A stretch of 64,000 nt of DNA from Methyloversatilis sp. RAC08 (lineage in GTDB: Bacteria > Pseudomonadota > Gammaproteobacteria > Burkholderiales > Rhodocyclaceae): assembly GCF_001713355.1 (NCBI RefSeq), contig NZ_CP016448.1:1178001-1242000 (forward strand). The letters are read 5' to 3'. The notes under the pieces were generated by a model. The model was given only the letters and a program-made list of their open reading frames with translations. It had not been told where the DNA came from and made no database searches. The position numbers were made by a program, and so were the translations under genes. The first letter of the stretch is position 1; the number at the start of each line of letters is the position of its first letter. Positions 4,965-62,802 of this stretch are shown here, one piece after another.

Positions 4965-6878
4965 TCAGGCGGCGTCGCGCAGGGTCTGACGCTCCTGATT
5001 GCGCAGGAAGGCGTCGAACATCAGCAGGGTCCACAGCGATGCGCTGTAGTCGCTGCGTCCGGATTGATGTGCGTCCACCAGATGTTCCAGATACGGGCGG
5101 TTGAACCAGCCGGTGTCGGCCAGCCGGCTGCCGAGCACCGCGTCGCGCACGCGCTGCTTCAGCGGACCGCGGAACCAGCGCGCAAGCGGCACCGAAAAGC
5201 CCATCTTCGGGCGATACATGATGTCGTGCGGCAGATGCGGCTCCAGCGACTTCTTCAGCAGATACTTGCCTTCCTGGCCGCGTATCTTCATCGATGCGGG
5301 CAGCGTGGCCAGCCATTCCACCAGCGGATGGTCCATCAGCGGTTCGCGCACTTCGAGCGAATGCGCCATGCTCGCGCGGTCCACCTTGGTGTTGATGTCG
5401 CCCACCAGATAGGTGTTCAGGTCGAGGTACTGGATCAGCGACAGCGGCTCGTCCGAACGGTGCCGCGCCGCGTGGCGGTGAAACACCTCCACCGCGTTGT
5501 AGCCGCCGAGTTCCGCTTTCATGCGCGGACTGAAGAGCTGTCGGCGCATCGGATCGCGCAGGATGGAAACGGAATGGAAATACGCCTCGACGGACGTTCG
5601 CGCCAGCGATTCGAAGGTGCTTTTGGCGCGGAACATACGCGGCGCCCAGTCCGCCTTCGGATAAAGCTGACCAAGGGTGCCGAACAGCGGGCGCCGCAGC
5701 CCCAGCGGCAGGCGCGAGCGCAGCTGTTCTTCCATCATGTGCAGCCGGTAGCGGCGGTAGCCACCGAAGCTCTCGTCACCGCCATCACCTGACAGTGCAA
5801 CGGTGACGTGCTTGCGCGCGAGCTGGCACACGCGATAGGTCGGCAGCGCTGAACTGTCGGCATATGGCTCGTCGTACAGCCAGGCGAGCGTGTCGATGAG
5901 ATCGAAGTCGTCGGACGCCACCATTTCGACGCGATGATTCGTGTGGTAGCGGTCAGCCACCTGCTGAGCGAAGCGCGATTCGTCGAACGCCGGATCGTCG
6001 AAGGCGATGGCGCAGGTGTTGACGGGTGTGTCCGAGGCCTGGGCCATCATTGCAACCACGGCACTCGAATCGACACCACCCGACAGGAATGCACCCAGCG
6101 GCACTTCGGAAATCATGCGCAGGCCGACCGATTCGCGCAGGCGGCGGATCAGCTCTTCCTCCGCTTCCACCTCGTCGATGGCGATGACCGAGCCGAAATC
6201 CACGTCCCAGTAGCGACGCGGCGCCGGTGCGACTTCACCGCGCCGGATGCACAGGCTGTGGGCCGGTTCCAGCTTGAACGCCTGGCGATAGATGGTGCGC
6301 GGATCGGCGACATAACCGAGTGCGAAGTATTCCTCGACCGCATGCGGATCGAGCGCGAGCGACAGACCGCCATGCGCGGTCAGGGCCTTCAGCTCCGATC
6401 CGAAGATCAGCTGGCCATCCGGCAGCAAGGCATAGAACAGCGGCTTGACGCCGAGCCGATCTCGGGCGAGGAAAAGCGTGCCGGTGTTCCGGTCGAACAG
6501 CGCGAACGCGAACATGCCGCGAAAGCGCTGCACGCAGTCTTCGCCCCATTGCTCCCACGCATGCACGATCACTTCGGTATCGCTGCGCGTGCGGAAGGTG
6601 TGTCCGAGCGCCGTCAGTTCCGGAATCAGCGTCTGGAAGTTGTAGATTTCGCCGTTGAACACGACGATGACCGAGCCGTCTTCGTTGGCCAGCGGCTGCT
6701 GGCCGCTCGCGACGTCGATGATGGACAGGCGGCGATGCCCGAGCCCGACACCGGGCTCGATGTGCAGGTCACCTTCGTCGGGGCCGCGGTGATGCTGCGA
6801 CTCGTTCATCCGGTGCAGTACGTCGCGCACGATGTCACGACGGTTGCGCGTGTCGAAAATGCCAACGAAACCGCACAT
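4965..6878 (-). CDS. Exosortase A system amidotransferase (asparagine synthase-like)
   Basis: 637 residues. The N-terminus MCGFVGIFDT supplies the class II glutamine amidotransferase nucleophile Cys2, followed by the glutaminase domain (about 1-190). The synthetase domain has the ATP-pyrophosphatase loop FLSGGVDSSAV near residue 265 and LSGDGGDESFGGY near 365. The length and the start match the exosortase/PEP-CTERM family (TIGR03108-like) rather than housekeeping AsnB. In these loci it is thought to amidate a carboxylated sugar of the exopolysaccharide; this is not proven. Its stop lies 13 bases from the next gene and its start 14 bases after the preceding stop. Confidence 0.88.
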   Translation of the reverse strand: MCGFVGIFDTRNRRDIVRDVLHRMNESQHHRGPDEGDLHIEPGVGLGHRRLSIIDVASGQQPLANEDGSVIVVFNGEIYNFQTLIPELTALGHTFRTRSDTEVIVHAWEQWGEDCVQRFRGMFAFALFDRNTGTLFLARDRLGVKPLFYALLPDGQLIFGSELKALTAHGGLSLALDPHAVEEYFALGYVADPRTIYRQAFKLEPAHSLCIRRGEVAPAPRRYWDVDFGSVIAIDEVEAEEELIRRLRESVGLRMISEVPLGAFLSGGVDSSAVVAMMAQASDTPVNTCAIAFDDPAFDESRFAQQVADRYHTNHRVEMVASDDFDLIDTLAWLYDEPYADSSALPTYRVCQLARKHVTVALSGDGGDESFGGYRRYRLHMMEEQLRSRLPLGLRRPLFGTLGQLYPKADWAPRMFRAKSTFESLARTSVEAYFHSVSILRDPMRRQLFSPRMKAELGGYNAVEVFHRHAARHRSDEPLSLIQYLDLNTYLVGDINTKVDRASMAHSLEVREPLMDHPLVEWLATLPASMKIRGQEGKYLLKKSLEPHLPHDIMYRPKMGFSVPLARWFRGPLKQRVRDAVLGSRLADTGWFNRPYLEHLVDAHQSGRSDYSASLWTLLMFDAFLRNQERQTLRDAA

Positions 6879-8041: not shown

Positions 8042-9582
8042 GGCGAAACAGCTTTCTCGAGCCCGGGTTCCAGCAGGGCCGCGAATTCGCGCAGAAGCGC
8101 CTGGGACTTCGCGCGATCCTCAAGTTTCTTTGTGTACAGCACGACCGCGTAACCCGCATCATCACCGGTCAGCAGCAGATTGCGTGCGAACAGCAGCTTC
8201 GCGATGACGCCGTTTGCGGTCGGCGTATCACCCACCACATACCAGTCATGGATCAGCAGACGCAACCGCGATGAGCGCAGTTCCGTCTCCCGCAGCGCAT
8301 GTGGCGTAACCGGAAGAATGCGTTCGCCGACGTTCGACCACACGTCATGCTCCTGCTCGATCATGTAGTTGCCGGAATTGATCAGTTCGGCATCCTGACG
8401 CTGCCGTCCGTACCACGCGAGGTGAACGACGATCACTTCGTCGTTGCGGCGGTACTGCAGCGTGGTTTCCCGGTCGGGATTCTGGAACGTTGGACGCCAG
8501 TCGGTCAGCGCCACCTCCTGATCCAGCGTCCAGCCGGCACCCGGTTCGACCGGCAGAACCAGTCCGGGCAAAGGCGGCAGCTGACGCTGCGCGAGTTGAG
8601 CCACGTAGAGCAGCGGACCCGCCAACAGTGCTGCAGCGGCGATGCCGACCGCTGCTGTCCGAAACGCCGACACCGGTCGCCACGCGGCCGAACCGGCCTC
8701 CGGCGGAACATCCTCTGCCTCGCGTTCCTGCCAGAATGATCCGACCCAGAACAGCAACAACATGATGACGCCGAAGAATACCCAGCCGTAGATGATGTGA
8801 TCTACACCGGTGGCGATCTTCATGTCTGAGTAGTGGGCGAGCAGCACGATCATCAGCGCCCGGAAACCGTTGGCGATGATGGGCACAACGAAGGACGCAG
8901 CGATGAAGGCTGCACGTCGCCATATCGAGCGATAACTCACATAGGCGTACAGCGCGCCGACGGTAACCGACGAAATGAGATAGCGCAGCCCGCTGCAGGC
9001 CTCGACTACCGACCAGCTGCCTGAAGGCAGTTCAAAGAAGGTGCCTTCGCGATAGACCGGGAAGTTCAGCAGCTGCAGCGCACCCACGGTGAAGTCGGCC
9101 GTGAAGTTCATCAGCGGCAGCATCAGATTTTCGCCCATCGGCACGCCGAGGAACAGGAAGGCCAGCGGATAGGCGATCACCCACGCGATGCGCCAGCCCA
9201 GCACGGCGATGACCAGAGCCGGAATGGACGCAACGAAAGCAAGCTGGCGCACCACCTGCACGCCGGCGACCTCCGCTGCCAGCCAGCCTGCGAGACTCAA
9301 CGCGAGGGCAGCCAGTCCCCAGAGACACGGCTGCGGCGACACGTTCGACAGCGCCCCCCGTTTGCGCCAGACCAGCCAGGCAAAGATGGGCACCACCAGA
9401 AGGCCGTGGGCGAAGGTTTCGGATCGCAGCCAGATTTCGACCATGGAACTGGCCGTGTCCCAGTACAGGGCAAGCAGAACCGCGAGCAGCAGCAGAAACA
9501 GCGGGCCCGCGCTGCGCCACGCACCGGTGACCGGGCGCACTTCAGCCACGCGAGTGGAGGATGCCGGGTTCAGCATTGACAT
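8038..9582 (-). CDS. xrtA: Exosortase A fused to an EpsI domain
   Basis: About 514 residues. The N-terminal half is a polytopic membrane protease/transpeptidase with the exosortase triad: Cys in EACSGLRYL (about residue 196), Arg in NGFRALMIV (about 241) and His in DHIIYGW (about 262). It is expected to cleave PEP-CTERM proteins at the inner membrane and pass them on. From about residue 320 there is a further hydrophobic segment and a periplasmic EpsI-type domain (VHLAWYGRQRQDAELI, ending with HDWYVVGDTP). Such fusion is usual in exosortase A. I used the ATG with AAGGA just upstream, which overlaps the preceding gene by 41 bases; a longer open frame upstream is antisense-free but lies inside that gene. 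Six candidate substrates are encoded in this window. Confidence 0.92.
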   Translation of the reverse strand: MSMLNPASSTRVAEVRPVTGAWRSAGPLFLLLLAVLLALYWDTASSMVEIWLRSETFAHGLLVVPIFAWLVWRKRGALSNVSPQPCLWGLAALALSLAGWLAAEVAGVQVVRQLAFVASIPALVIAVLGWRIAWVIAYPLAFLFLGVPMGENLMLPLMNFTADFTVGALQLLNFPVYREGTFFELPSGSWSVVEACSGLRYLISSVTVGALYAYVSYRSIWRRAAFIAASFVVPIIANGFRALMIVLLAHYSDMKIATGVDHIIYGWVFFGVIMLLLFWVGSFWQEREAEDVPPEAGSAAWRPVSAFRTAAVGIAAAALLAGPLLYVAQLAQRQLPPLPGLVLPVEPGAGWTLDQEVALTDWRPTFQNPDRETTLQYRRNDEVIVVHLAWYGRQRQDAELINSGNYMIEQEHDVWSNVGERILPVTPHALRETELRSSRLRLLIHDWYVVGDTPTANGVIAKLLFARNLLLTGDDAGYAVVLYTKKLEDRAKSQALLREFAALLEPGLEKAVSP

Positions 9583-51102: not shown

Positions 51103-54100
51103 TTATTTGCTTCCTTCTCGGGGCAAATGCAGTCCGGCCGAGAATCCGGCACGATCGATGTCGGCCGGCAGATCATTCAGCACCCGCGCCAGCCGACGTT
51201 CGCCGCGTGTGCGGCGACCGCTCGCCATCCACCACAGCGCCTGCAGATACCTCACGCGCGGCCGTGCGGCTGGCAGCAGGCGCGCAAACCGCAAGGCACG
51301 CCCGATCAGGCCTTCGCCGGCCGCGACCAGGGCGCGTCGATCGCCGGTCTCATGATGCGCCACCACCACCAGCGCCATGGCACAGCCGGTGAAGCCGTTC
51401 AGGGCATAGATGGACGTCATCGTTGCCCGGTCGAACACGCGGCAGAAGGTGTCGATCGATGACAGCGCCTCTGCCTTGCGCCCGGTTCGCGCAAACCACC
51501 AGGCGAGCACGCCGTGGCGGAGAAGCTGGGTATTCGGGTCCACCACCCTGGCCGCCAGCCTGTCGATGGTGTGCAGGTCCACATGCGGCGTCGAGGCCGC
51601 GACGCGAAGGTCCATCGTGCACAAGGCGAGCAGCCCCCAGAGTTCAGACGCGGCCTCGCGGACACGCCGTCCTTCCTCGCACAGCGTGAGCATATGCGTG
51701 CGGGCCGTTTCGAGCCGACCTGCGAAATCGTTGGCATAGGACATCAGGGCCGTGCATTCGCCCCAGTTCCTGTACTGACGCAGCCGCCAGAAGATGTCGG
51801 CACCCGTCTGTCCGTGCCCCCGAGCGGCGTCCAGGTCGCCACCGGCAAGCCGGTAGAGACAGAGCTGCTCGTGGGTCCACGCCTGCTCGGCCATTCCGGC
51901 TTGATCCAGGCACCGCTCCGCCCTGGCCGCATAGCGCGCGGCCTCTGACTTGAACGGCGTGTAACTGAGCACGAGCGCACCGGAGGCAAGATGCTCGGGG
52001 CGACTGCCGGCGCGCACGATGTTGATCGAACGCAGGGAGCTTGCGACGAATCTCGGCCTGTCGCCTTCGAAGAAATAGACCTGCGCAAGCCTGTTGTGGG
52101 CACGGGAAACGAGCACTTCGGCGTCGGCATCGAGGTTCCCGTGCCGCCACCAGCGACCGTTCAGCGTACGCGCGAACTCTCGCAGCATGTGCCGGTTCGG
52201 CGAGCCCTGCTCCATGTCGATGTCACCCTGCCGGGCCAGGCACTCGAGCGCCGCGGCGCGGCACTCCGCATGACGACCGAGCTGGAAGAAAACATCGCTG
52301 AGCCAGAGTTGCCAGCTCGAAGCGCAAGCCGATGGCAATCCCTGCATGGCGAGTGCCCGCTGCAGCAGACCGGCAAGTTCGTCGAACCAGCCCTGCATCC
52401 GGTACAGGGCACACAGCCCGGGCAGCAGGCGCGCAAGCGCGTCAATGGCCCCGGAACTCACGAGATGGTCGAACACCACTCGCAGATTGCCTTGTTCCGC
52501 GCGCAGCGCGTCCAGCGCGACGGTGTCCGCATGGGCCTCGAATCGCTGATGGCCAGCCTGCAGAAGCGCCAGAAAGTGCCGCGCATGGGCATCACGCACG
52601 GCTCCGTTCGCCCCGGAATGCAGCAACTTGCGCTCCCCGAAATCGCGCAGCAGCGGATGTACGTCGAGCCGCCCATGGCGAGCGGGCTGCAGCAGCGACT
52701 TGGCGGTGAGGCCCGCGAGGATCGTGAGCGTGCCACCACAGAAAGCCAGGGCGGAGTCAGGCGTGAAGCCACCCCGGCACATGCACAGGGCGCTGAGTAC
52801 TTGCTGCTCCGCCGGTTCCAGCAGACGCCACGAATGATCGAACACCGAAGCCATGTCGCTGTGGCGGGGATTCTCCGGCAACGTGGCCGGCGCCTCGCCG
52901 AGCACGTGAGCGCCCGCACAAAGTCGATCGGCCACGTCCCGGCACGACAGGGTTGCGAGCCAGCGGGCCGCCAGCACCAGACCGAGCGGATACCCCTCGA
53001 CTGCGCGGCATATCCGCAGGACGTGAACGCCGTCTGCGTCCGCATCGAAGCCGGGCTGCTGGCGACGCGCGAGTTCGCAGAACAGGCTGGGTGCGGGCGC
53101 GCTGCGCAGTTCCGGTGTCCAACGCTCGGTATCCGGGAACGGCAGGCCGCAAAGCCTGACGATCCACTCGGTCGCCAGCCCCAACTGATGCCGGCTGGTG
53201 ACCAGAATGCGCAGGCCGGTGGCATGGCGGGCAAGCGTCGCCACCAGATCGCGTGCGTCGGCCACCTGCTCGAAGTTGTCGAGAATCAGCAGCTGCCGAC
53301 CTGGTGCGAGCACTTCAAGCAACGATTCGCGCTCGCGCCCCGCTGGCAGGGCGATGCCCAGCGCAGCCGCCACCCGGTGCGCGACCAGCGCCGCGCACTC
53401 GGCACCGGTCTGCGGCGCCAGATCGGACAGGTCCACGAAGCACGCGCCATCCGCAAAATGCGCGGACAGCAGCGCACCCACGGCCAGTGCAAGATGTGTC
53501 TTGCCGATACCGCCCGGGCCGACCAGGGTGACCACACGCGCCTCGGCGCTGGACAGCAACGATACGATGCGCGCCTGCTCTTCGCTACGCCCGACCCACG
53601 GGAGGGTTTCGTCCAGCGTCACCCTGCGCACTGGCAGCGTCTGCGCGCCAGACGTGCCGACGGCCGTCATGCAGGCCGCGGGTGCGGCATCGACAGCGCT
53701 GTCCGCATGCAGCGCAGACTCGTAAAGTGCGAGCGTGTCGGCATCGGGCGCCGCATCGAGCTCGCGCCGCAAGGCCTTTGCACACGCCTCGTACTGGGCA
53801 ATCGCCGACGCCGGCTGCCCCATGTCGATGTAGCTCCGGATCAACGCCTGATGATGGGGTTCGGACCAGGGCGCAATCGACAGGCAGCGCCGAAGCACCT
53901 CCGCCTCGCCCCGATGATCGCCGGCGGCACGCAGCGCAGTGGCGGCTTCATCGAGACGTCCAAGATATTTACCGCCCAGGGTTTCGCGCTGCAGTGAAAG
54001 CCAGTCCTCGAAATCCGGCGCCTTTCGCAGACGCAATCCACCCAGGAAATTCTCGATGCGCAGCGCAAGCAACGTGGGGATGCTCTCCCCGACTGCGGAC

Positions 54101-54411
54101 AGCGGGGCATCCAGCGCGAAAAGATCGAGGTTCCAGCCCGCATCCGCGGGCACACGGACTGTCGTGCGATCAGCCTGGACATAAGCGGGAAGCTCCTGCC
54201 GCAAACGGGTCAGAACGAAGCGCAGGTTGGCGCGTGAGGCGGCTTCGTCGAGTTCACCCCAGAACATCCGGCACAGCAGGGCGCGCGAACACGCCCCACC
54301 GGTCAGCGCAACGTACAACCAGAGCGCCGCCGCCTTCGAATTGGTCAGCGAGGGAACGGCAACGCCGTCCACGACCACCGTCAGGTCTCCAAGGGACTGC
54401 AATTGCAGCAT
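51103..54411 (-). CDS. BTAD/SARP-type ATPase regulator with TPR region
   Basis: 1102 residues. The N-terminal 95 residues form an OmpR-like winged helix (LTNSKAAALWLYVALTGGA, then ANLRFVLTRLRQELP); a bacterial transcriptional activator domain follows (about 100-240, ALIRSYIDMGQPASAIAQY). The NB-ARC ATPase has Walker A VTLVGPGGIGKTHLALAV (about 292-309) and Walker B QLLILDNFEQV (about 373). The C-terminal half is helical, TPR-like. This is the AfsR/large-SARP design, less common in proteobacteria. The start was set at the ATG where the winged helix begins; the open frame continues upstream but is antisense to the ammonia-lyase gene. It is divergent from the PYP operon and may control it. Confidence 0.85.
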   Translation of the reverse strand: MLQLQSLGDLTVVVDGVAVPSLTNSKAAALWLYVALTGGACSRALLCRMFWGELDEAASRANLRFVLTRLRQELPAYVQADRTTVRVPADAGWNLDLFALDAPLSAVGESIPTLLALRIENFLGGLRLRKAPDFEDWLSLQRETLGGKYLGRLDEAATALRAAGDHRGEAEVLRRCLSIAPWSEPHHQALIRSYIDMGQPASAIAQYEACAKALRRELDAAPDADTLALYESALHADSAVDAAPAACMTAVGTSGAQTLPVRRVTLDETLPWVGRSEEQARIVSLLSSAEARVVTLVGPGGIGKTHLALAVGALLSAHFADGACFVDLSDLAPQTGAECAALVAHRVAAALGIALPAGRERESLLEVLAPGRQLLILDNFEQVADARDLVATLARHATGLRILVTSRHQLGLATEWIVRLCGLPFPDTERWTPELRSAPAPSLFCELARRQQPGFDADADGVHVLRICRAVEGYPLGLVLAARWLATLSCRDVADRLCAGAHVLGEAPATLPENPRHSDMASVFDHSWRLLEPAEQQVLSALCMCRGGFTPDSALAFCGGTLTILAGLTAKSLLQPARHGRLDVHPLLRDFGERKLLHSGANGAVRDAHARHFLALLQAGHQRFEAHADTVALDALRAEQGNLRVVFDHLVSSGAIDALARLLPGLCALYRMQGWFDELAGLLQRALAMQGLPSACASSWQLWLSDVFFQLGRHAECRAAALECLARQGDIDMEQGSPNRHMLREFARTLNGRWWRHGNLDADAEVLVSRAHNRLAQVYFFEGDRPRFVASSLRSINIVRAGSRPEHLASGALVLSYTPFKSEAARYAARAERCLDQAGMAEQAWTHEQLCLYRLAGGDLDAARGHGQTGADIFWRLRQYRNWGECTALMSYANDFAGRLETARTHMLTLCEEGRRVREAASELWGLLALCTMDLRVAASTPHVDLHTIDRLAARVVDPNTQLLRHGVLAWWFARTGRKAEALSSIDTFCRVFDRATMTSIYALNGFTGCAMALVVVAHHETGDRRALVAAGEGLIGRALRFARLLPAARPRVRYLQALWWMASGRRTRGERRLARVLNDLPADIDRAGFSAGLHLPREGSK

Positions 54412-54699
54412 GTTCGTCTCGCCTGTCCCTCGAGCGAGGGCGCGGGGCGTTTGCTGTCTGCACGCGGTCGATGATAACGAGACGATATGCCGCGGACAAG
54501 TCACGGACCGACTTCGAGCGGCGCCAATCCCGATGACATGACAGCGCCTTGCCTCGTGGACGCGATGCCTGCCCTCGCGCGGAAACTGCCCGGCCTCGCG
54601 CATGTCCATGCAGATTCCGGCGGGCACACACGGAGGGCGATAGGCATCCCGGCCGACAGATGCCATGCTTTCCCCCTGCACACATCCGAACCTGCTTTC

Positions 54700-56265
54700 A
54701 TGACCGCAGCTGCACAGCACCCGGAGGCCGTTGTTTTCGACGGTCAGCCACTCGACATCGAAGCCATCGATGCCATCGCGCACGGCACGCGGCGCGCCGA
54801 ATTGTCCACCGATCAGCGGTTCCGCGAACGCATCGATGCCGGCGCCCGGGCCGTGCTGCAACTGCTTACCGACGACGGCGTGATCTATGGCGTCACCACC
54901 GGCTATGGCGAATCGTGCACGGTGCCGGTACCGCCCGCCCAGATCGCCGAACTGCCTCATCACCTCTACGCCTATCACGGTGTCGGCATGGGACGCCTGC
55001 TCGACGCCGAAGAGACGCGCGCCGTGCTGGCGGTGCGGCTGGCGTCGCTGTGCCAGGGCATGTCGGGCGTGCGCCATGCACTGCTGCAGCAAATCGAGGT
55101 TTTTCTGCAGCACGACATCCTGCCGTGCATTCCGGCCGAAGGTTCGGTCGGCGCCAGCGGCGATCTGACGCCGCTGTCGTATGTCGCCGCCGCACTGTGC
55201 GGCGAGCGCGACGTGCTGTGGCAGGGCCGGCGGATGCCGGCGAAAGAGGCGCTGGAACAGGCCGGTGTCGAGCCGCTGGCGCTGCAGCCGAAGGAAGGTC
55301 TGGCGATCATGAACGGGACCGCCGTCATGACCGCGCTGTCCTGCCTCGCCTGGCAGCGGGCACAACGGTGCAGCCGCATCGCCACCCGTCTGACGGCGCT
55401 GAACGTGTTCGCGACGGCGGGCAATCCGCACCACTTCGACACACTGCTGTTCGACGCCAAACCGCATCCGGGCCCGCGCGCGGTCGCGCGCTGGCTGCGC
55501 CGCGACCTGGCCTGTGCGGATGAAGCCGCCGGACGCAATCCGGCGCGACTGCAGGACCGCTATTCACTGCGCTGCGCACCGCACGTGATCGGCGTGCTGG
55601 AAGACGCCTTGCCGTTCACCCGTTCGTTGATCGAGAACGAACTGAACAGCGCCAACGACAATCCGCTGATCGACCCCGAGTCGGGTCGTGTGCTGCACGG
55701 CGGCCATTTCTACGGCGGTCACGTGTCGTTCGCGATGGACTGCCTGAAAACCGCGGTGGCCAACGTGCTCGACCTGCTGGACCGGCAACTGGCACTGCTG
55801 GTGGACAGCCGCTTCAGCCACGGCCTGCCCGACAACCTGTCGGCCGCCACCGCCGACCGCAGCGCGATCAACCACGGGCTGAAAGCGCTGCAGATCGCGG
55901 TGTCGGCGTGGACCGCCGAAGCGCTGAAGATGACGATGCCGGCGTCGGTGTTCTCGCGCTCGACCGAGTGCCACAACCAGGACAAGGTGAGCATGGGCAC
56001 GATCGCGGCGCGCGACTGCCAGCGCACCCTCGATCTGGGCGACCAGGTGCTGGCCGCCATGCTGATCGCGGCGCGGCAGGCCGTCACGCTGCGACTGCGC
56101 ATCGACGGCGGCAGCTTGCCGCCGGTGCTGGCGGACACGCAGGCATGGCTCGAAGCACACATTCCGCTGGTCGTCGAAGACCGCGCACTTGATCAGGAAC
56201 TGATGCATCTGGTCAGTGCGCTGCGCGGAAACAGCGCCGGCAACGTGCTGGAGTCGGGTGAATGA
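54700..56265 (+). CDS. Tyrosine ammonia-lyase (aromatic amino acid lyase)
   Basis: 521 residues. The MIO prosthetic group would form from Ala152-Ser153-Gly154 in GSVGASGDLTPLSYV; the catalytic Tyr63 is in VIYGVTTGYG. The selectivity loop reads ELPHHLYAYHGVG, in which His88-Leu89 align with the His-Leu pair that marks tyrosine-specific lyases, rather than Ser-His of HutH or Phe-Leu of phenylalanine lyases. It should convert tyrosine to p-coumarate, the precursor of the PYP chromophore. The stop overlaps the ligase ATG. The ATG chosen has a weak ribosome site; the frame is open 213 bases upstream without lyase homology. Confidence 0.9.
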   Translation: MTAAAQHPEAVVFDGQPLDIEAIDAIAHGTRRAELSTDQRFRERIDAGARAVLQLLTDDGVIYGVTTGYGESCTVPVPPAQIAELPHHLYAYHGVGMGRLLDAEETRAVLAVRLASLCQGMSGVRHALLQQIEVFLQHDILPCIPAEGSVGASGDLTPLSYVAAALCGERDVLWQGRRMPAKEALEQAGVEPLALQPKEGLAIMNGTAVMTALSCLAWQRAQRCSRIATRLTALNVFATAGNPHHFDTLLFDAKPHPGPRAVARWLRRDLACADEAAGRNPARLQDRYSLRCAPHVIGVLEDALPFTRSLIENELNSANDNPLIDPESGRVLHGGHFYGGHVSFAMDCLKTAVANVLDLLDRQLALLVDSRFSHGLPDNLSAATADRSAINHGLKALQIAVSAWTAEALKMTMPASVFSRSTECHNQDKVSMGTIAARDCQRTLDLGDQVLAAMLIAARQAVTLRLRIDGGSLPPVLADTQAWLEAHIPLVVEDRALDQELMHLVSALRGNSAGNVLESGE

Positions 56266-57500
56266 CGGCGCCCTGGTACGCCGACGAAGCGGCGGTCGCG
56301 CGCGTGCTGGCCGACCTGATCGCCGAAGAAATCCGTCGCCTTAGACCGGGCGGCAGCGCCCCGCCGCCGCCTTGGCCGGCGCACATGGCGCTGGATGAGA
56401 CCGGTTTCGGACTCGACTCGCTCGAACGCTACACGGTGGCCGCAGCGATCGCCGAAATGCTGCAGCTTCACGAATCTTCGGTGATCGATGCACTGCCCGG
56501 GGTACAGCAGTTCGGACAGTGGTGTGCGCTGGCGGCGGAAGGGCTCGCGCAGGCGGACACGCACCTGACCTTCCGCACGTCCGGCAGTACCGGCACGCCA
56601 AAACCCTGCCGGCATGCGCTGAACACACTCGAAGCCGAAGCCGACGCGCTGGCGGACTGCATCGGGCCGCGCAGGCGGGTGCTGCTGGCCGTACCGGTTC
56701 ATCACATCTACGGCTTCATTTTCGGGGTGCTGCTTCCGCCCCGGCTGGGCGCCACCGGCACGGAAGACATCCGGCAGCTGTCGCCGCTGGCGCTGGAAGG
56801 TCGGCTGCACGCGGGTGACCTGATCGTCAGCCACCCGGCACACTGGGCACTGGTCGACCGCTTCTGCCCGCGTCTGCCCGCCGACATCGTCGGCATCACG
56901 TCGACGGCGCCCTGCCCGGACGCCCTCGCCGACGCGCTGATCGCGAAAGGTCTGGCGCGCCTGATCCAGATCTACGGCAGTTCGGAAACGGCGGGCGTCG
57001 GCTGGCGCGATGCCGCAGGCGCGCCCTATGAATTGATGCCGCACTGGCGGCGCACGGAAGGTGACGCACACAACGGCGACACAGTGCTGACACGGGCGAC
57101 GGCCGACGGCACGCCGGTTCAGGCCCTGCTGCAGGACGTCCTCGAATGGGTGCCTGACGGCGACCGGCGCTTCCGGCTTGGTGGCCGGCGGGACGAGGCG
57201 GTGCAGGTGGCCGGCGTGAATGTGTTTCCGGCCCGGGTGCGCGCCGTGCTGCTGGAACATCCGCAGGTCGAGGCCTGCGCAGTGCGCCGCATGTCGGCTG
57301 GAGAAGGCGAGCGGTTGAAGGCCTTCGTCGTGGCGCGCGCGGGCACGGCCCCCGCTGCCTTGCTGCCCGAGCTTGAGGCGTGGGTGAAAGAGCGGCTGAC
57401 AGCCCCGGAATGCCCGCGCGGATGGACCTTCGGCGACCGGCTTCCGAGGGACGAACGCGGCAAGCTTGCAGACTGGTCCATCGCACCGCAGGCGCGCTGA
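56262..57500 (+). CDS. Short aromatic acid:AMP ligase with N-terminal carrier-like domain (p-coumarate ligase)
   Basis: 412 residues. Residues about 10-95 look like an acyl carrier domain: helix VLADLIAEEIRRL, then GFGLDSLERYTVAAAIAEML with Ser53 as the phosphopantetheine site. An adenylate-forming domain follows, with P-loop FRTSGSTGTPK (107-114), IYGSSETAG near 240 and the FRLGGRRDEAVQVAGVNVFP hinge. The domain is shorter than CoA ligases, like ligases of aryl polyene and dialkylresorcinol clusters. It sits in an ATGA overlap with the lyase gene and 154 bases before PYP, so it should activate p-coumarate for attachment to PYP, perhaps via its own carrier rather than CoA. Confidence 0.85.
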   Translation: MTAPWYADEAAVARVLADLIAEEIRRLRPGGSAPPPPWPAHMALDETGFGLDSLERYTVAAAIAEMLQLHESSVIDALPGVQQFGQWCALAAEGLAQADTHLTFRTSGSTGTPKPCRHALNTLEAEADALADCIGPRRRVLLAVPVHHIYGFIFGVLLPPRLGATGTEDIRQLSPLALEGRLHAGDLIVSHPAHWALVDRFCPRLPADIVGITSTAPCPDALADALIAKGLARLIQIYGSSETAGVGWRDAAGAPYELMPHWRRTEGDAHNGDTVLTRATADGTPVQALLQDVLEWVPDGDRRFRLGGRRDEAVQVAGVNVFPARVRAVLLEHPQVEACAVRRMSAGEGERLKAFVVARAGTAPAALLPELEAWVKERLTAPECPRGWTFGDRLPRDERGKLADWSIAPQAR

Positions 57501-57549
57501 TGCGGGGGCTGGGTAGCACCGGGCTCCGCTCAGATCCGCTCAAGTTTGG

Positions 57550-57584
57550 CGGCAAAATGCCGATATTTAGAACGCTAACTAAAG
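57550..57584 (+). promoter_or_regulatory. Candidate operator elements upstream of the PYP gene
   Basis: Two elements lie in the 153-base gap before the PYP gene. CGGCAAAATGCCG (57550-57562) is a perfect five-base inverted repeat with an AAA centre. CGCTAACTAAAG (57573-57584) matches at 10 of 12 bases the direct-repeat unit found upstream of the PEP-CTERM gene at 50967. No clear -35/-10 pair was found, so a separate promoter for PYP is possible but not shown. Confidence 0.3.
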
Positions 57585-57653
57585 TAGCCATCACCCACGC
57601 TTTGGCATCCGGTGCGCCTCGTCGCAGCCGGAGATTCAGACCCAAGGAGCACC

Positions 57654-58046
57654 ATGAACACTGAACATACCGTGTCCTTTGCAGACGCAGCCATCCTCGA
57701 CTTTCTTGAGCGCGCCAGCGATGCCGAACTGGACGGACTGGATTTCGGCGTCATCGGCATGGATGACGCCGCGCGCGTGACGCGCTACAACCGTTTCGAA
57801 TCGACCGCTGCAGGCCTGTCGCCTGATCGCGTGCTCGGCCATGCGCTGTTCACGGTCGTCGCGCCGTGCATGAACAACTTCATGATCGCCCAGCGCTTCG
57901 AGGATGCGCAGCAGGATGGCAGCGCGCTCGACGACATCATCGATTACGTCCTGACGCTGCGCATGCGGCCGGTCAAGGTGAAGCTCAGATTGCTCGCCCG
58001 ACCCGGCAGCGCTTTGCGCTACGTGCTGGTTCATCGTCAGGCCTGA
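57654..58046 (+). CDS. pyp: Photoactive yellow protein (blue-light receptor)
   Basis: 130 residues, close to the usual 125. Aligned by eye with the Halorhodospira protein, LDGLDFGVIGMDD matches the start of the PAS core, and all chromophore contacts keep register with a constant offset of three: Tyr45 (for Tyr42) and Glu49 (Glu46) in RYNRFE, and Cys72 (Cys69) in VVAPC, the thioester site for p-coumarate. RPVKVKL matches the TPTKVKV strand. Arg52 and Thr50 of the reference are Leu55 and Ala53 here, which should alter the lid and the colour or kinetics. AAGGAG precedes the ATG. The lyase and ligase upstream make its chromophore; two cyclic-di-GMP enzymes follow directly. Confidence 0.93.
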   Translation: MNTEHTVSFADAAILDFLERASDAELDGLDFGVIGMDDAARVTRYNRFESTAAGLSPDRVLGHALFTVVAPCMNNFMIAQRFEDAQQDGSALDDIIDYVLTLRMRPVKVKLRLLARPGSALRYVLVHRQA

Positions 58047-58059
58047 GGCGGAGCCCAGC

Positions 58060-59370
58060 ATGAGCGCACCGGTAGAACAGGAATACGAAGCGCTGCTGCA
58101 GTTCATGTACATGGCGCCGATCGGCCTGGTACAGACGCTGGCGGACGGCGAAATCACCATGGTCAATCCGCTCTGTGCGCAGCTGCTGATGCCGCTGTCC
58201 CCGGATGGCCAGCTGGCCAACCTGTTTACGGCACTCGAAGCCGTCGTGCCCGACCTGCGCCAGCGCGTGAGGGAATTTCCGGATGCGCACGGCACCATCT
58301 GCGACGCCCAGCAAGTGCCGATCTCGACTGGCCAGGCGGGCCGCAGGCAGCACCAGGTGCTGTCGCTGACCTTGCTCAAGCTGGACGCCGAACGTCTGAT
58401 GGCCGTGCTTTCGGACGTGACGCAGTCGGTCCGCCGGGAGCGCGAACTGCGCCAGAGCCAGGCCTGGATCAACACCCTGGCCATCGGCCTGAGCGACTAC
58501 GCCCTGGTTTCACTCGACCACCGCGGCTGCGTGCAGGGCTGGAACCCGAGCATCAGCCGGATCAGCGGCTTCAGCCGGGAGCAGGTCGAAGGTCACAGCC
58601 TGTCGATGTTCTACCCGGCCGATGCCATGTCCGGCCAGCGCGTGCTGGACCGCCTGCACGAGGCCGATCTGACAGGCTGGAGCCTGGACGAAGGATGGTG
58701 CATACGCGCCGATGGCAGCCGCTACTGGGGCAGCTGCCTCATTGCCCCGCTGCACGACAGCGATGACACCCCGTCGGACGAACATGCCTACAGCCTCATC
58801 ATCCGCGACGTGTCGGATCGGCGCGAGGCGGCCGAAGCGATGCTGACGGCCGTGTCCTGCGACCACCTGACCGGGCTGTTCAATCGCCGCGCCTTCGTCG
58901 AAGCGGCCGAACTGGAAATGCAGCGCTGGGCCCGCTCGCCGCGACCGCTGTCGCTGGTCATGATCGACGCCGATCACTTCAAGCGGATCAACGACCAGTA
59001 CGGACACGTCATCGGCGACGGCGTGCTGCGCCATCTGGCCGCCAGCATGACCGCCACCTTCCGGGCAATGGATGTGCTGGCGCGCTTCGGTGGCGAGGAA
59101 TTCATCGTGCTGCTGCCGGACACGTCCCTGGAAGGCGCAGAGCAGGTCGCACAGCGACTGTGTCGCCTGATCGAGGCCACACCGGCCGTGGTCGGCGAGC
59201 ACATGGTGCGGTACACCGTCAGCGCCGGCGTGGCGGCCATGGATGCCGACGCGACCGATTTCGACGCGCTGGTGCAGCGTGCCGACGAGGCGCTCTACGC
59301 CGCCAAGGCCAAAGGTCGCAACCGGGTCGAACGCTGGCAACCTGCCACCCTGCCGGCTGCCGTGCGATGA
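58060..59370 (+). CDS. Diguanylate cyclase with two N-terminal PAS domains
   Basis: 436 residues. A first PAS-like domain (about 1-125, FMYMAPIGLVQTLADGEITM) is nearly duplicated at the N-terminus of the next protein. A second PAS (about 140-260, LVSLDHRGCVQGWNPSISRI, ending IIRDVSDRREAAEAML) leads into a GGDEF domain: DHLTGLFNRRAFVEA, VMIDADHFKRINDQYGH and FGGEEF. The product-inhibition site R-x-x-D is present five residues before GGEEF (RAMD). It should make cyclic di-GMP. It begins 13 bases after the PYP stop, so PYP is its most likely input; there is no membrane segment. Confidence 0.9.
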   Translation: MSAPVEQEYEALLQFMYMAPIGLVQTLADGEITMVNPLCAQLLMPLSPDGQLANLFTALEAVVPDLRQRVREFPDAHGTICDAQQVPISTGQAGRRQHQVLSLTLLKLDAERLMAVLSDVTQSVRRERELRQSQAWINTLAIGLSDYALVSLDHRGCVQGWNPSISRISGFSREQVEGHSLSMFYPADAMSGQRVLDRLHEADLTGWSLDEGWCIRADGSRYWGSCLIAPLHDSDDTPSDEHAYSLIIRDVSDRREAAEAMLTAVSCDHLTGLFNRRAFVEAAELEMQRWARSPRPLSLVMIDADHFKRINDQYGHVIGDGVLRHLAASMTATFRAMDVLARFGGEEFIVLLPDTSLEGAEQVAQRLCRLIEATPAVVGEHMVRYTVSAGVAAMDADATDFDALVQRADEALYAAKAKGRNRVERWQPATLPAAVR

Positions 59371-61151
59371 GCGCAGACCTTGATGCGGAGGCGCTCCAGC
59401 CGCCCAATCTCGAAGCGCTGATCCAGTTCCTATACCAGGCGCCGACCGGCCTGCTGCAGATCCGGCCCGACGGCTCGGTAACGATGATGAATCCGCGCTC
59501 TGCGCAGCTGCTGATGCCGCTCGCGCGACAGGGCAATCTGGACAATCTGTTCGAGGTGCTGGCCGAAGTCGCGCCCGACCTGCGCGCAATGGTCGCCGCC
59601 GCAGCCGAACCGGGCGCGCTGGTGTGCGAAGGACTGCGCATGCCCGTGCTGCCGCCGACCCGCAGCAGACGCGTGCTCGGCCTCAGCCTGCTGCGACTCG
59701 ATGCCCACACCATCATGGGCTGCGTCAACGATGTGACGCACGAGGTGGAACTGGAGCAGCAGCGGCTGGCATCGCGGATGCGCGACGCGTCGCGCACCGA
59801 CAGCCTCACCCAGATGCCGAACCGTGCCGCCGTGCTCGAACGCATACAGCAGGCGCTCGCGCGTTCGGAAGGTGAGGCCCCGCCCCACTTCGCGGTGCTG
59901 TTCATCAACTTCGACCGCTTCAACAGGGTCAATCTGACGCTCGGACAGGAAGGTGGCGACCGGCTGCTGCGCATGGTCGCCGAGCGGCTGAACAGCACCG
60001 TCCGGCAGCGCGATGCGGTCGGCTCGCCGCACGAATCCCTGCATACGACGGCGCGACTCGGCGGCGATGAATTCGTGCTTCTGCTCGACGGGATGCGCGA
60101 CAGCGAAGATGTGCACAGCGTCGCGCAGCGGCTGATCGACACCCTGTCGCGCCCGTATCTGATCAATGGCGTCGAAGTCCATGTATCAGCCAGCATCGGT
60201 GTCGTAGCCGGCGTGCATACCGCATCGCTCGCCAACACGGTGCTGCAGGACGCGAGCCTCGCCATGCAGGAAGCAAAGCGCGCCGGCGGCGGACGCCACG
60301 TGCTGTTCAACCCGTCGATCAAGGACAGGGCGACCCGACTCGGCGTCATGGAGCATGAGCTCCGGCGCGCGCTCGAACAGAAGGAACTGTTCGTCGTCTA
60401 TCAGCCCATCGTCGAACTGCCCGATGGCCGCGTCGCGGGCTTCGAGGCGCTGGTGCGCTGGCAGCACCCGGAACGCGGTGTCGTGTCGCCGATCGAGTTC
60501 ATCGAAATCGCCGAAGAGTGCGGCCTGATCGGCGCACTCGGCGAATTCGTCCTGCATTCGGCATGCCGCCAGCACATGGCATGGCAAAGACAGTTCGGCC
60601 CCGGCATGCCCCGCATGATTTCGGTCAACCTCTCGCGCGCCCAGCTGAATGATGCCGACATCGCCCGTCAGGTCGAGCGCGTGCTGCGCACGACCCGCAT
60701 GCCGGCCACGTCACTGCAGCTCGAAGTGACCGAGAGCATGGCCGCCCAGGGCGATGACATCCGCACCCGCCTGCTCGAACTGAAGGCGCTCAGCATCGCC
60801 CTGGCGCTGGACGATTTCGGCACCGGCTACTCATCGCTCGCCTGTCTCGGCCAGCTGCCGATCGACGTCGTCAAGATCGACCGTTCATTCGTTGCCGACG
60901 CCGAAACCAATCTGCACAAGCGCGTCCTGATCGAAGCCACCGTACGCGTCGCCCGCAGCCTCGGCATGAGCACCACCGCCGAGGGGGTCGAAACCGACGG
61001 TCAGGCCACCCTGCTCACCACGCTGGGCTGCGACAAGGGCCAGGGCTACCTGTGGTCCCGCCCCATGACCGCCCGCGACGCCACGCAGTGGCTCGCAGCG
61101 CAGAGCGAAGCGAGCCGGCCGGTTGAAGCCGTGCCGGCTGCGGTGCGTTGA
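59367..61151 (+). CDS. PAS-GGDEF-EAL protein (cyclic-di-GMP turnover)
   Basis: 594 residues. The N-terminal PAS-like domain (about 1-130, FLYQAPTGLLQIRPDGSVTM, then SAQLLMPLARQGNLDNLFEV) is a paralogue of that in the preceding protein. The GGDEF domain (about 150-320) has RLGGDEF but no R-x-x-D inhibitory site. The EAL domain (about 335-585) keeps FEALVRW, the metal and catalytic residues in SVNLSRAQL, EVTESMA, LDDFGTGYSSL, VVKIDRSFV, TAEGVET and GQGYLWSRP, so phosphodiesterase activity is expected. ATGA overlap with the cyclase gene gives coupled production of opposing or bifunctional enzymes in the PYP operon. It is soluble. Confidence 0.9.
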   Translation: MSADLDAEALQPPNLEALIQFLYQAPTGLLQIRPDGSVTMMNPRSAQLLMPLARQGNLDNLFEVLAEVAPDLRAMVAAAAEPGALVCEGLRMPVLPPTRSRRVLGLSLLRLDAHTIMGCVNDVTHEVELEQQRLASRMRDASRTDSLTQMPNRAAVLERIQQALARSEGEAPPHFAVLFINFDRFNRVNLTLGQEGGDRLLRMVAERLNSTVRQRDAVGSPHESLHTTARLGGDEFVLLLDGMRDSEDVHSVAQRLIDTLSRPYLINGVEVHVSASIGVVAGVHTASLANTVLQDASLAMQEAKRAGGGRHVLFNPSIKDRATRLGVMEHELRRALEQKELFVVYQPIVELPDGRVAGFEALVRWQHPERGVVSPIEFIEIAEECGLIGALGEFVLHSACRQHMAWQRQFGPGMPRMISVNLSRAQLNDADIARQVERVLRTTRMPATSLQLEVTESMAAQGDDIRTRLLELKALSIALALDDFGTGYSSLACLGQLPIDVVKIDRSFVADAETNLHKRVLIEATVRVARSLGMSTTAEGVETDGQATLLTTLGCDKGQGYLWSRPMTARDATQWLAAQSEASRPVEAVPAAVR

Positions 61152-61210
61152 GGGTTTGGGGGGATGCGGACGCTGCACTAGAGCCTGTCGGCTGACGTGA
61201 CCGTACGATG

Positions 61211-61231
61211 TGGTGCCTTGGTCTGGCACCA
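61211..61231. terminator. Hairpin after the PYP operon
   Basis: TGGTGCC and GGCACCA form a seven-base-pair stem with a seven-base loop, 60 bases after the stop of the last gene. No T-run follows on either strand, so it may be a weak or Rho-assisted terminator, or only a stable hairpin. Confidence 0.35.
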
Positions 61232-61348
61232 TTCGCAGCGCGCGCCATCGCCCTGCTTTTGTGCGTGAAAGTGTCTAGAAAACCCGGGGCGATTCAACGC
61301 CTGATGAGTGGACAGCAGACACCATCACCCTCAATCGTCCTATCGGCG

Positions 61349-62008
61349 TTAGGAACGGCTTCGACGTGCGAATGATACGACCGCACCGAACCCGAGGATC
61401 ATCATCGCCGCTGAAGACGGCTCAGGAACGACCGACACCGTGATTGTGCTATTTGGCGTAGAGATCGCGCTCCCGTACAGAGCCCGACCGTCTTCAAACT
61501 GAAACCCGATCCCGTACGCGGCAAATGGAATGTTGTTTAATCCCGATTCCGCGGGTGACTGAACATCCGGGATCAGCACAATGCGTTCGGCAAGTGTTTT
61601 TGCTCCTGCAAAGTGGTAATTGAATCCGTAAAACGTTTCCGTTAGCGGCACCATCGGCGAACCGCTTTCATGCATGCTCGACGTGAAGCCGAACGCATTG
61701 GGTGTGAAGTAGAGATACGGAACATTCACGATCCTGACGTCAATCGCCCCAATCGACTCTTGAGTGAATGTCAGACTGGTCAAGGCGTACAAGCTGCTGA
61801 GCTCGACTGGGGATAGATCCTCCCCATCAGCTTCCAGCGTCGCCCTGAAGATCCAATCGCCGGTCGGTATCTCTCCGAAGCCGATGCCTGCGCCGAAGTC
61901 GGAATACATCAGGTCATTGAAGGTCTGCGTGATCGTGTAGGTCGCTGCATTGGCAGTGGCAGCGGCAGTGAGCAAAAGAAGAGCCACAAGAGACTTATTG
62001 ATCGGCAT
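61349..62008 (-). CDS. PEP-CTERM sorting domain protein
   Basis: 219 residues. Signal peptide (SLVALLLLTAAATANA), a compact beta-rich domain (TYTITQTFNDLMYSDFGAGI and on) and the sorting signal VVPEPSSAAMMILGFGAVVSFARRSRS. GGGGAA lies ahead of the ATG. It converges with the PYP operon and has a sigma-54-like site 58-73 bases upstream. No catalytic motif seen. It lies well apart from the other four clustered PEP-CTERM genes. Confidence 0.87.
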   Translation of the reverse strand: MPINKSLVALLLLTAAATANAATYTITQTFNDLMYSDFGAGIGFGEIPTGDWIFRATLEADGEDLSPVELSSLYALTSLTFTQESIGAIDVRIVNVPYLYFTPNAFGFTSSMHESGSPMVPLTETFYGFNYHFAGAKTLAERIVLIPDVQSPAESGLNNIPFAAYGIGFQFEDGRALYGSAISTPNSTITVSVVPEPSSAAMMILGFGAVVSFARRSRS

Positions 62009-62065
62009 CGGTTTTTCCCCGGGAAAGTTATCTAATGCACGGAACTGAACTTGGAATCACAGATA

Positions 62066-62081
62066 AGCAAGTCCTAGACCA
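62066..62081 (-). promoter_or_regulatory. Probable sigma-54 promoter of the PEP-CTERM gene at 61349-62008
   Basis: Read on the minus strand: TGGTCTAGGACTTGCT. The TGG and TTGCT blocks match the consensus with the exact GG-N10-GC spacing; the CACG part of the -24 block is not kept. Transcription would begin near 62055, giving a 47-base leader. It is weaker than the site at 24665 but is placed at a natural distance from another PEP-CTERM gene. Confidence 0.45.
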
Positions 62082-62303
62082 TTAATGACGTTGGTCTTCA
62101 TAAACAAGCTTCTAGACAATAGAGATCATCGCAAAGAACGAAAGTGTAAATTTCATCGACGGCGAATCATCATTGAATTGCTGCGCTTTGAGGATGTGGT
62201 GGACGGCCACTGGGTGGCTACGAGCGACGACGGAGCGCGCGTTTCTTTTCGCGTCGTTTCGCCTGTCGCGTTGCGCCAGTGTTCTGACGCCTAACAAGCC
62301 GAA

Positions 62304-62334
62304 ACGAAAACGGCCCGCCGTGATGGCGAGCCGT
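62304..62334 (-). terminator. Rho-independent terminator of tRNA-Phe
   Basis: ACGGCCCGCC pairs with GGCGAGCCGT around a five-base loop (one mismatch). On the minus strand the stem is followed by TTTCGTTTC. It lies 10 bases beyond the 3' end of the tRNA. Confidence 0.7.
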
Positions 62335-62343
62335 CTGAAGGGG

Positions 62344-62419
62344 TGGTGGCCTGGGGCGGAATCGAACCACCGACACGCGGATTTTCAATCCGCTGCTCTA
62401 CCAACTGAGCTACCAGGCC
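62344..62419 (-). tRNA. tRNA-Phe (anticodon GAA)
   Basis: 76 bases including an encoded CCA. The acceptor stem pairs GGCCTGG with CCAGGCC; the D arm has TAGCTCAGTTGGTAGAGCA, the anticodon loop is TTGAAAA with GAA in the middle of a GCGGA/TCCGC stem, and the T arm contains GGTTCGATTCC. The layout is that of bacterial tRNA-Phe. No integrated element is seen at its 3' end. Confidence 0.97.
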
Positions 62420-62475
62420 ACGCGAGGCCGCGATGGTAATGCGTCGGGCAGGCAGTGTCAAAGAGTTTGGCGTAT

Positions 62476-62802
62476 TCAGGCGGCGGGGCGGGCCTGCAGT
62501 TCGAGCACGAGGCTGATCTTGGCGATGATGAGCAGCAGTTCGGCGAGCAGCAGCCAGAACAGTGCGACCGCCGGCAGGTGGCGGTCGGGCACGAAGGCGG
62601 GGGTGATGCGGCGGGTGATGGCGAGGATGCGCGCGCCGACCAGGTTGAAGGCGTTGTAGATCAGGTTGTGCTGGCGCTGGCTGCCGGCGAGCAGCCACAG
62701 CGCACCCTGGGCGATGAAGGTGAGCAGCAGCAGCTCGTTGAGCCCCTTCAGGACGACGAAGACGCGCAGGGCCAGTTCGAGCGTATCGGCGCCGGCGCTC
62801 AT
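62476..62802 (-). CDS. Small membrane protein of unknown function
   Basis: 108 residues. Two to three hydrophobic segments (about 10-40, LRVFVVLKGLNELLLLTFIA; and about 78-100, VALFWLLLAELLLIIAKISL) flank a basic loop with RQHNLIYNAFNLVGARILAI. I do not recognise a family. The ATG overlaps the stop of the sensor kinase gene (ATGA), so it is made with the kinase and could modulate it or be its accessory protein. Confidence 0.7.
   Translation of the reverse strand: MSAGADTLELALRVFVVLKGLNELLLLTFIAQGALWLLAGSQRQHNLIYNAFNLVGARILAITRRITPAFVPDRHLPAVALFWLLLAELLLIIAKISLVLELQARPAA

Follow-up and report, generated by a model that had tools for sequence, protein, structure and literature searches.

The DNA analyzed here (the window) is a 64,000-nucleotide stretch of the genome of Methyloversatilis sp. 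RAC08, which consists of one contig of 3.94 Mb. At 54700-61151 it carries a gene for photoactive yellow protein (PYP), followed by genes for two proteins predicted to synthesize and degrade cyclic di-GMP (c-di-GMP). Both of these proteins open with the same domain of about 130 residues, named NPAS here, which stands out as a strong candidate for the receiver of the light signal from PYPs of clade C. The explanation that is favored here, with a probability of about 0.6 for the whole, is that PYP is read via NPAS on an opposed pair of c-di-GMP enzymes that is expressed from a flagellar promoter and has swimming as its output. NPAS would then probably be a dedicated PYP-receptor domain, a plug-in that occurs on cyclases, on phosphodiesterases, and also on histidine kinases, and by which one photoreceptor could set both arms of c-di-GMP metabolism, in some lineages within the flagellar regulon. 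The features of the locus are as follows.

54700-56265, + strand: TAL, an aromatic amino acid lyase, probably a tyrosine ammonia-lyase (p-coumarate synthesis)
56262-57500, + strand: pCL, a 4-coumarate-CoA ligase of the PYP-associated type (TIGR02372)
57540-57566, + strand: sigma-28 (FliA) promoter-like element, TCAAGTTT-N11-GCCGATAT, ending 87 bases 5' of the pyp ATG
57654-58046, + strand: PYP, a single-domain photoactive yellow protein of clade C
58060-59370, + strand: predicted NPAS-PAS-GGDEF diguanylate cyclase, with active-site motifs and RxxD site intact
58075-58473, + strand: NPAS domain of the cyclase, the candidate PYP receptor domain
59367-61151, + strand: NPAS-GGDEF-EAL protein, a predicted phosphodiesterase, with the EAL set intact and the GGDEF metal Asp changed to Asn
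59409-59777, + strand: NPAS domain of the phosphodiesterase

An original prediction, made from the window alone, had labeled the first domain of both c-di-GMP proteins as PAS. This label agrees with the predicted fold of NPAS but not with any Pfam PAS model, none of which matches even one of 100 NPAS members at E ≤ 0.01; comparison with NCBIfam and with PDB sequences likewise gave no PAS match. The AlphaFold2 model of NPAS has PAS topology (predicted local distance difference test score, pLDDT, 86.9; predicted template modeling score, pTM, 0.75), and the same NPAS topology recurs in the model of the full cyclase (pLDDT 85.5, pTM 0.65). When the NPAS model was compared with the PDB using Foldseek, 24 matches were obtained at E ≤ 0.001, nearly all of them PAS-containing proteins and including LOV-PAS kinases, FixL, and DosP (E 4e-5 to 1e-3), with TM-scores that are modest (0.40-0.61 by query length). 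Since no sequence model matches NPAS but its predicted topology and its Foldseek matches are those of PAS domains, it can be placed as a PAS-fold family outside these libraries and, as modeled, is an undescribed PAS-fold domain. A tree of NPAS copies sorts by predicted output type: 64 of the 74 cyclase-type copies form one group together with an orphan copy (support 0.94), the four kinase-type copies form a third group (support 0.99), and the 76 EAL-type copies fall into one group with weak support (0.10). Two of the aligned NPAS genes carry a stop.

For comparison, related loci were chosen by PYP alone, and the best 80 of 165 matching relatives were used. In every one of these 80 loci an NPAS domain begins 12-283 bp (median 36) 3' of the pyp stop. 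The first gene with this domain encodes an NPAS-PAS-GGDEF protein in 62 loci, an NPAS-GGDEF-EAL protein in 14, an NPAS-PAS protein in three (one of which, in L105, is cut by the contig end), and a fusion in one, and the pair of an NPAS-PAS-GGDEF gene and then an NPAS-GGDEF-EAL gene is present in 57 of the 80. NPAS also heads histidine kinases at four loci (L040, L041, L054, and L071), where the HisKA and HATPase domains were confirmed. The partner in L101 is a single fusion protein, NPAS-PAS-NPAS-GGDEF-EAL, and those in L102 and L113 retain NPAS-PAS without GGDEF. NPAS is the sole domain common to the GGDEF, GGDEF-EAL, and HisKA-HATPase partners, and is the constant element of these loci, while the output domain varies. 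The originally proposed link from PYP to the pair of c-di-GMP proteins encoded 3' of pyp has gained in support through the shared NPAS and its presence in 80 of 80 loci.

The association of NPAS with clade C PYPs also holds in genome and plasmid surveys. When 399 genomes of the order were scanned (the PYP and NPAS scans being taken as one set, with the same handles where listed), PYP was matched in 16, comprising 11 of clade C at E ≤ 3.4e-33 and five others at E ≥ 1e-10, and NPAS was likewise matched in 16, comprising 11 strong matches (best E ≤ 1.5e-38) and five at 21-26 bits; in most of the large scans, scoring was confined to the top 10-16 candidates of each genome, so that weak NPAS copies may be missed. 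The clade C PYPs and the strong NPAS matches occupy the identical 11 genomes, and 22 of the 23 NPAS copies of at least 86 bits sit in the gene run directly 3' of pyp. The source genome itself has 61 PAS-family matches and just two NPAS copies, both at this locus. Among 319 genomes of the phylum, the two with strong NPAS are the two with a clade C PYP, and among 274 genomes of the class no NPAS match was found in four (G487, G518, G543, and G645) that have clade A-like PYPs keeping Phe96 and Trp119. A tblastn search of 72,556 plasmids detected PYP in 13 records and NPAS in 11, all 11 being among the 13. Inspection of all 13 PYP records showed that in each of the 11 an NPAS gene directly follows a clade C pyp, an arrangement present twice in Caballeronia SBC2. 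These plasmids come from Caballeronia, Rhizobium, Sphingomonas, Indioceanicola, Methylobacterium, and Polymorphobacter, and include those of Alphaproteobacteria. NPAS is missing from the other two PYP records, namely L166, with a clade A-like PYP, and L158, with a clade C PYP; a PAS histidine kinase gene and a BLUF gene are found near the latter.

By their motifs, one of the two NPAS proteins of the window is predicted to make c-di-GMP and the other to break it. The cyclase has the GGEEF motif, the metal-binding Asp residues, and the RxxD site, whereas in its neighbor the metal-binding Asp of the GGDEF domain is replaced by Asn, which sets that domain apart from predicted cyclases, and the EAL set (ExLxR, Asn, Glu, DDFGTG, Lys, Glu, and Gln) is complete. 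The same division is evident among the relatives. Of 64 proteins of the cyclase type, 61-63 keep the metal Asp (62), GGEEF, and RxxD positions. Of 75 proteins of the second type, 71 have Asn in place of the metal Asp and 22 have a change at the second Gly of GGDEF, whereas 73-75 retain the catalytic residues of EAL.

The positions of the five + strand genes, the ATGA overlaps at 56262 and 59367, and the 13-base gap at 58047-58059 were all confirmed as originally given. Missing from that account was a 153-bp spacer between pCL and pyp (57501-57653) and, since this gap holds a promoter-like element, the proposed single five-gene operon is not established and its continuity across the gap is doubtful. 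The element matches the published Escherichia coli sigma-28 consensus, TAAAGTTT-N11-GCCGATAA (PMC2859248), at 14 of 16 positions. Three congeners (L044-L046) have it in recognizable form, and the shorter gap of L047 has lost it. In a scan of about 320 bp 5' of pyp in 81 loci (25.9 kb), sites of at least 13/16 were found in 12 loci and of at least 12/16 in 17, versus means of 0.0 and 0.35 in 20 sets obtained by first-order Markov resampling, and 0 and 0 on the reverse strand; several of the 12 loci are sister species, and the site of at least 13/16 in L047 falls within the ligase gene. Elsewhere in the loci, 2,972 kb contain five sites of at least 13/16, compared with the 12 in the 25.9 kb 5' of pyp, which amounts to an enrichment of about 270-fold.

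The source genome contains fliA, and a search of it with a relaxed pattern allowing up to two mismatches returned 11 sites, versus one for a reversed control; the IUPAC pattern had been relaxed at two positions to include the window's own box, so that the 0 mismatches there are partly by construction. Apart from the site at pyp, sites precede genes for a YcgR-type PilZNR protein, MotA, a chemoreceptor, and FliN, and further ones precede those for two HDOD proteins, an Hpt protein, FimV, and an AP2-domain protein, with one lacking a clear gene. With a putative sigma-28 promoter of the kind that precedes motor, chemoreceptor, and YcgR genes, the PYP system would therefore have swimming as its likely output. 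The FliA-like boxes of the two HDOD genes (L193 and L199; C1:1936005 and C1:3102736) lie 30 and 42 bp 5' of the start, and both genes are candidates for the flagellar regulon. A sigma-70 promoter scan of 54300-61400 gave one minus-strand match, which is at chance level. In the Oxalobacteraceae, the pyp upstream regions of L060, L065, L069, L070, L072, L079, L085, L092, L102, and L113 share the sequence TTGACA-N17/18-CAACAT, preceded in eight of these 10 loci by a TGTCAA half-site, a pattern that suggests another regulator acting between pcl and pyp.

That the sensor is a PYP with Tyr45, Glu49, and Cys72 was borne out by alignment, in which these residues correspond to Tyr42, Glu46, and Cys69 of the Halorhodospira protein, and by phmmer matches in the PDB to 1mzu (E 2.2e-16) and 1gsv (E 2.4e-14). 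Against TIGR02373, the narrow PYP equivalog of NCBI, it scores 82.3 bits (E 2.8e-23) and does not reach the cut-off of 143.05; this model takes in about 20% of PYP homologs (PMC9664959). The same paper gives as the signature of clade C, a clade without a characterized member there, that Phe92, Phe96, and Trp119 (Halorhodospira numbering) are not conserved and that Met100 is kept. The window PYP bears this signature, with I96, L100, Y123, and M104. When 89 clade C sequences were aligned with three clade A-like ones, Phe92, Phe96, and Trp119 proved to be replaced in clade C, Met100 and the pocket Cys and Glu to be conserved in 89/89, and the pocket Tyr in 88/89. The nearest named relatives are four Methyloversatilis records with 96, 95, 89, and 86% PYP identity, and no PYP relatives were found in viral contigs. 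Some plasmids carry two types of PYP. An Indioceanicola plasmid (L163, 2465-7622) has, consecutively, a clade A-like pyp, pcl, a lyase gene, a clade C pyp, and an NPAS-GGDEF gene, the two PYP types thus adjoining one chromophore supply. The Caballeronia SBC1 and SBC2 plasmids (L160, L202, and L203) have a clade C pyp with an NPAS cyclase gene in addition to a clade A-like pyp beside a ligase gene; this two-pyp arrangement occurs twice in SBC2, whose clade C PYPs have Phe in place of Tyr42.

Chromophore synthesis by the products of the first two genes, which had also been proposed, is a sound prediction by homology. TAL scores 521.9 bits against the Pfam Lyase_aromatic model and carries the Ala-Ser-Gly motif that forms the 4-methylideneimidazole-5-one (MIO) group of aromatic lyases. 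Its top NCBIfam model is the BagA/FevW tyrosine ammonia-lyase, at 405.5 bits with a cut-off of 1000, and none of the NCBIfam tyrosine-lyase models reached its cut-off. At the selectivity pair TAL has Tyr-His, the pair seen in nine of the 10 lyases aligned, while the lyase of L163 has His-Leu. pCL scores 328.9 bits against TIGR02372 (E 3.3e-98) and misses the cut-off of 334.7 by 5.8. A pCL gene is present in 37 of the 80 related loci and a TAL gene in eight.

In the proposed mechanism, TAL and pCL would make p-coumaroyl-CoA, which would load Cys72 of the clade C PYP, and blue light would drive the photocycle of the latter. PYP would then contact the NPAS of the cyclase and of the phosphodiesterase, directly and in a light-dependent manner, and light would shift the balance of the make-and-break pair. 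NPAS could serve as a plug-in, with the same domain residing on a histidine kinase in some loci. Methyloversatilis and several relatives would transcribe pyp and the partner genes from the flagellar sigma-28 promoter, and the shift in c-di-GMP would alter swimming, for which YcgR, under the same sigma factor, is a plausible receptor. The gene order, the intact residues, the NPAS family with its clade C PYP co-occurrence, the motif-based division between the two enzymes, and the enrichment of the promoter motif are observed, whereas chromophore binding, PYP-NPAS contact, the direction in which light acts, dependence on FliA, and the swimming output are inferred.

A number of observations weigh against this explanation. 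The related loci are not independent of one another, so that hypergeometric figures obtained for them overstate significance, and tyrosine is a predicted substrate of the lyase. A divergent NPAS-PAS-GGDEF gene of 86 bits (L153, G164:C41, 6209-7690, + strand) lies on a contig from which a PYP match is absent; it belongs to a genome that is 68% complete and is the single strong orphan NPAS met. Conversely, the Comamonadaceae plasmid L158 has a clade C pyp (5986-6372, + strand) and no NPAS match in the plasmid record. On plasmids, an NPAS-bearing EAL protein is found only in Caballeronia M1242 and, since the other EAL neighbors are without NPAS, the double-NPAS pair is typical of betaproteobacterial genomes and not universal. 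The sigma-28 box reaches 12/16 in just the 17 of 81 loci given above, and 23 loci, in the Massilia/Oxalobacteraceae part, have the sigma-70-like TTGACA-N17/18-CAACAT instead; the two elements occur together in none of the 81 and neither is present in 41, so that flagellar coupling would be lineage-specific. NPAS might, moreover, bind a ligand of its own. In a mirror-tree comparison of the 57 of 81 loci that hold all seven domains, the correlation with PYP is highest not for NPAS but for PASm_A (0.77), with NPAS_A at 0.71, GGDEF_A at 0.69, NPAS_B at 0.67, GGDEF_B at 0.71, and EAL_B at 0.67. Because all operon domains correlate with PYP in this range, NPAS is not singled out by co-evolution.

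It is conceivable, if rather unlikely, that NPAS senses a ligand or redox state of its own or simply dimerizes these enzymes, that PYP acts on the cyclase via the second PAS or the GGDEF domain, and that the linkage of NPAS to pyp reflects operon inheritance alone. PAS domains often bind ligands and NPAS has a predicted PAS fold, and the roughly equal co-evolution of all operon domains with PYP, slightly stronger for the second PAS, fits such a role. Apart from one fusion, however, the GGDEF-EAL partners have no second PAS, nor do the four histidine kinases that were checked, whereas NPAS is the only one found in 80/80 loci, and genomes that have no clade C PYP almost never contain strong NPAS. 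The original prediction had instead looked to an exosortase/exopolysaccharide locus in the same window as the target. C-di-GMP often controls biofilm, and an exosortase gene is indeed present in the window. The PYP of Idiomarina is reported to lower biofilm under blue light (PMC12826048). The exosortase gene, at about 8731-9486, nevertheless shares only the 64 kb with the PYP locus, from which it is 45-48 kb distant on the opposite strand; no PilZ match was found in the window, and the promoter element of pyp is of the flagellar type, all of which makes control of exopolysaccharide or biofilm through this locus improbable. Least probable is a chromophore-free PYP with partners that act without light, which could be argued from the loss of Phe92, Phe96, and Trp119 in clade C and from the lack of a characterized member in the passages available (PMC9664959); the near-invariant pocket residues and the pCL and TAL genes of the related loci run counter to it.

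Beyond the PYP locus, a gene for a small PEP-CTERM protein (61349-62008, - strand) is convergent with it, and a tRNA gene (62347-62419, - strand) was the sole match of an Rfam scan of 54000-62600. A divergent BTAD/NB-ARC transcriptional regulator (51103-54411, - strand) adjoins TAL, but was rejected as a conserved part of the locus, tblastn having matched it in one of the 80 related loci (L045).

PYP genes adjoining GGDEF/EAL genes and TAL/pCL genes have already been published (PMC9664959, PMC12826048). Clade C PYPs beside GGDEF/EAL proteins (Xing et al., 2022; PMC9664959) are of the same clade and have the same kind of neighbor, and PYP has been proposed to modulate these adjacent proteins; the passages covered mention neither a domain common to the partners nor an opposed pair nor a sigma-28 promoter. 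Dohmen et al. (2025; PMC12826048) surveyed 113 pyp operons, as inferred there, with GGDEF in 29, EAL in 22, pCL in 42, and TAL in seven; the passages covered contain no analysis of a partner-shared domain or promoter. The full set of the window is therefore rare, as originally claimed, given the TAL counts both here and in that survey, but its arrangement is of a known type. The pyp-pCL-TAL operon of Halorhodospira halophila (PMC12826048) likewise has chromophore genes beside pyp, but pyp comes first and belongs to clade A, and none of the three genes is for c-di-GMP. Idiomarina loihiensis also has a single-domain PYP with an adjacent GGDEF protein, and a blue-light effect on biofilm (PMC9664959, PMC12826048), but its PYP is of clade A. 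The PYP-chemoreceptor pairs of Leptospira, likened to CetA/CetB (PMC9664959), resemble the present case in having a free-standing sensor thought to signal to its neighbor; that chemoreceptor lacks a sensory domain, whereas the partners here have a dedicated PAS-fold domain. In the literature covered (titles, the starts of abstracts, and selected passages), an NPAS-like partner or a FliA link for PYP is not named, and no paper was found that combines 'photoactive yellow protein' with 'FliA' or with 'Methyloversatilis'. The co-occurrence of the NPAS family with PYP, the opposed enzyme pair, and the sigma-28 match 5' of pyp thus look new.

PYP is among the best-studied photoreceptors, and its signaling partner or chain was still called unknown in 2022, 2025, and 2026 (PMC9664959, PMC12826048, PMC13250908), the partner in Halorhodospira being described as unidentified in a 2026 abstract (PMC13250908). 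NPAS would answer the partner question for clade C only, because the PYP of Halorhodospira belongs to clade A. For clade C, a small domain that occurs almost exclusively beside its PYPs turns the question into one of binding between two soluble proteins. If the favored explanation is true, a single light sensor would steer a synthesizing and a degrading enzyme simultaneously, and PYP and NPAS together would provide a blue-light tool of two components in which the output can be exchanged.

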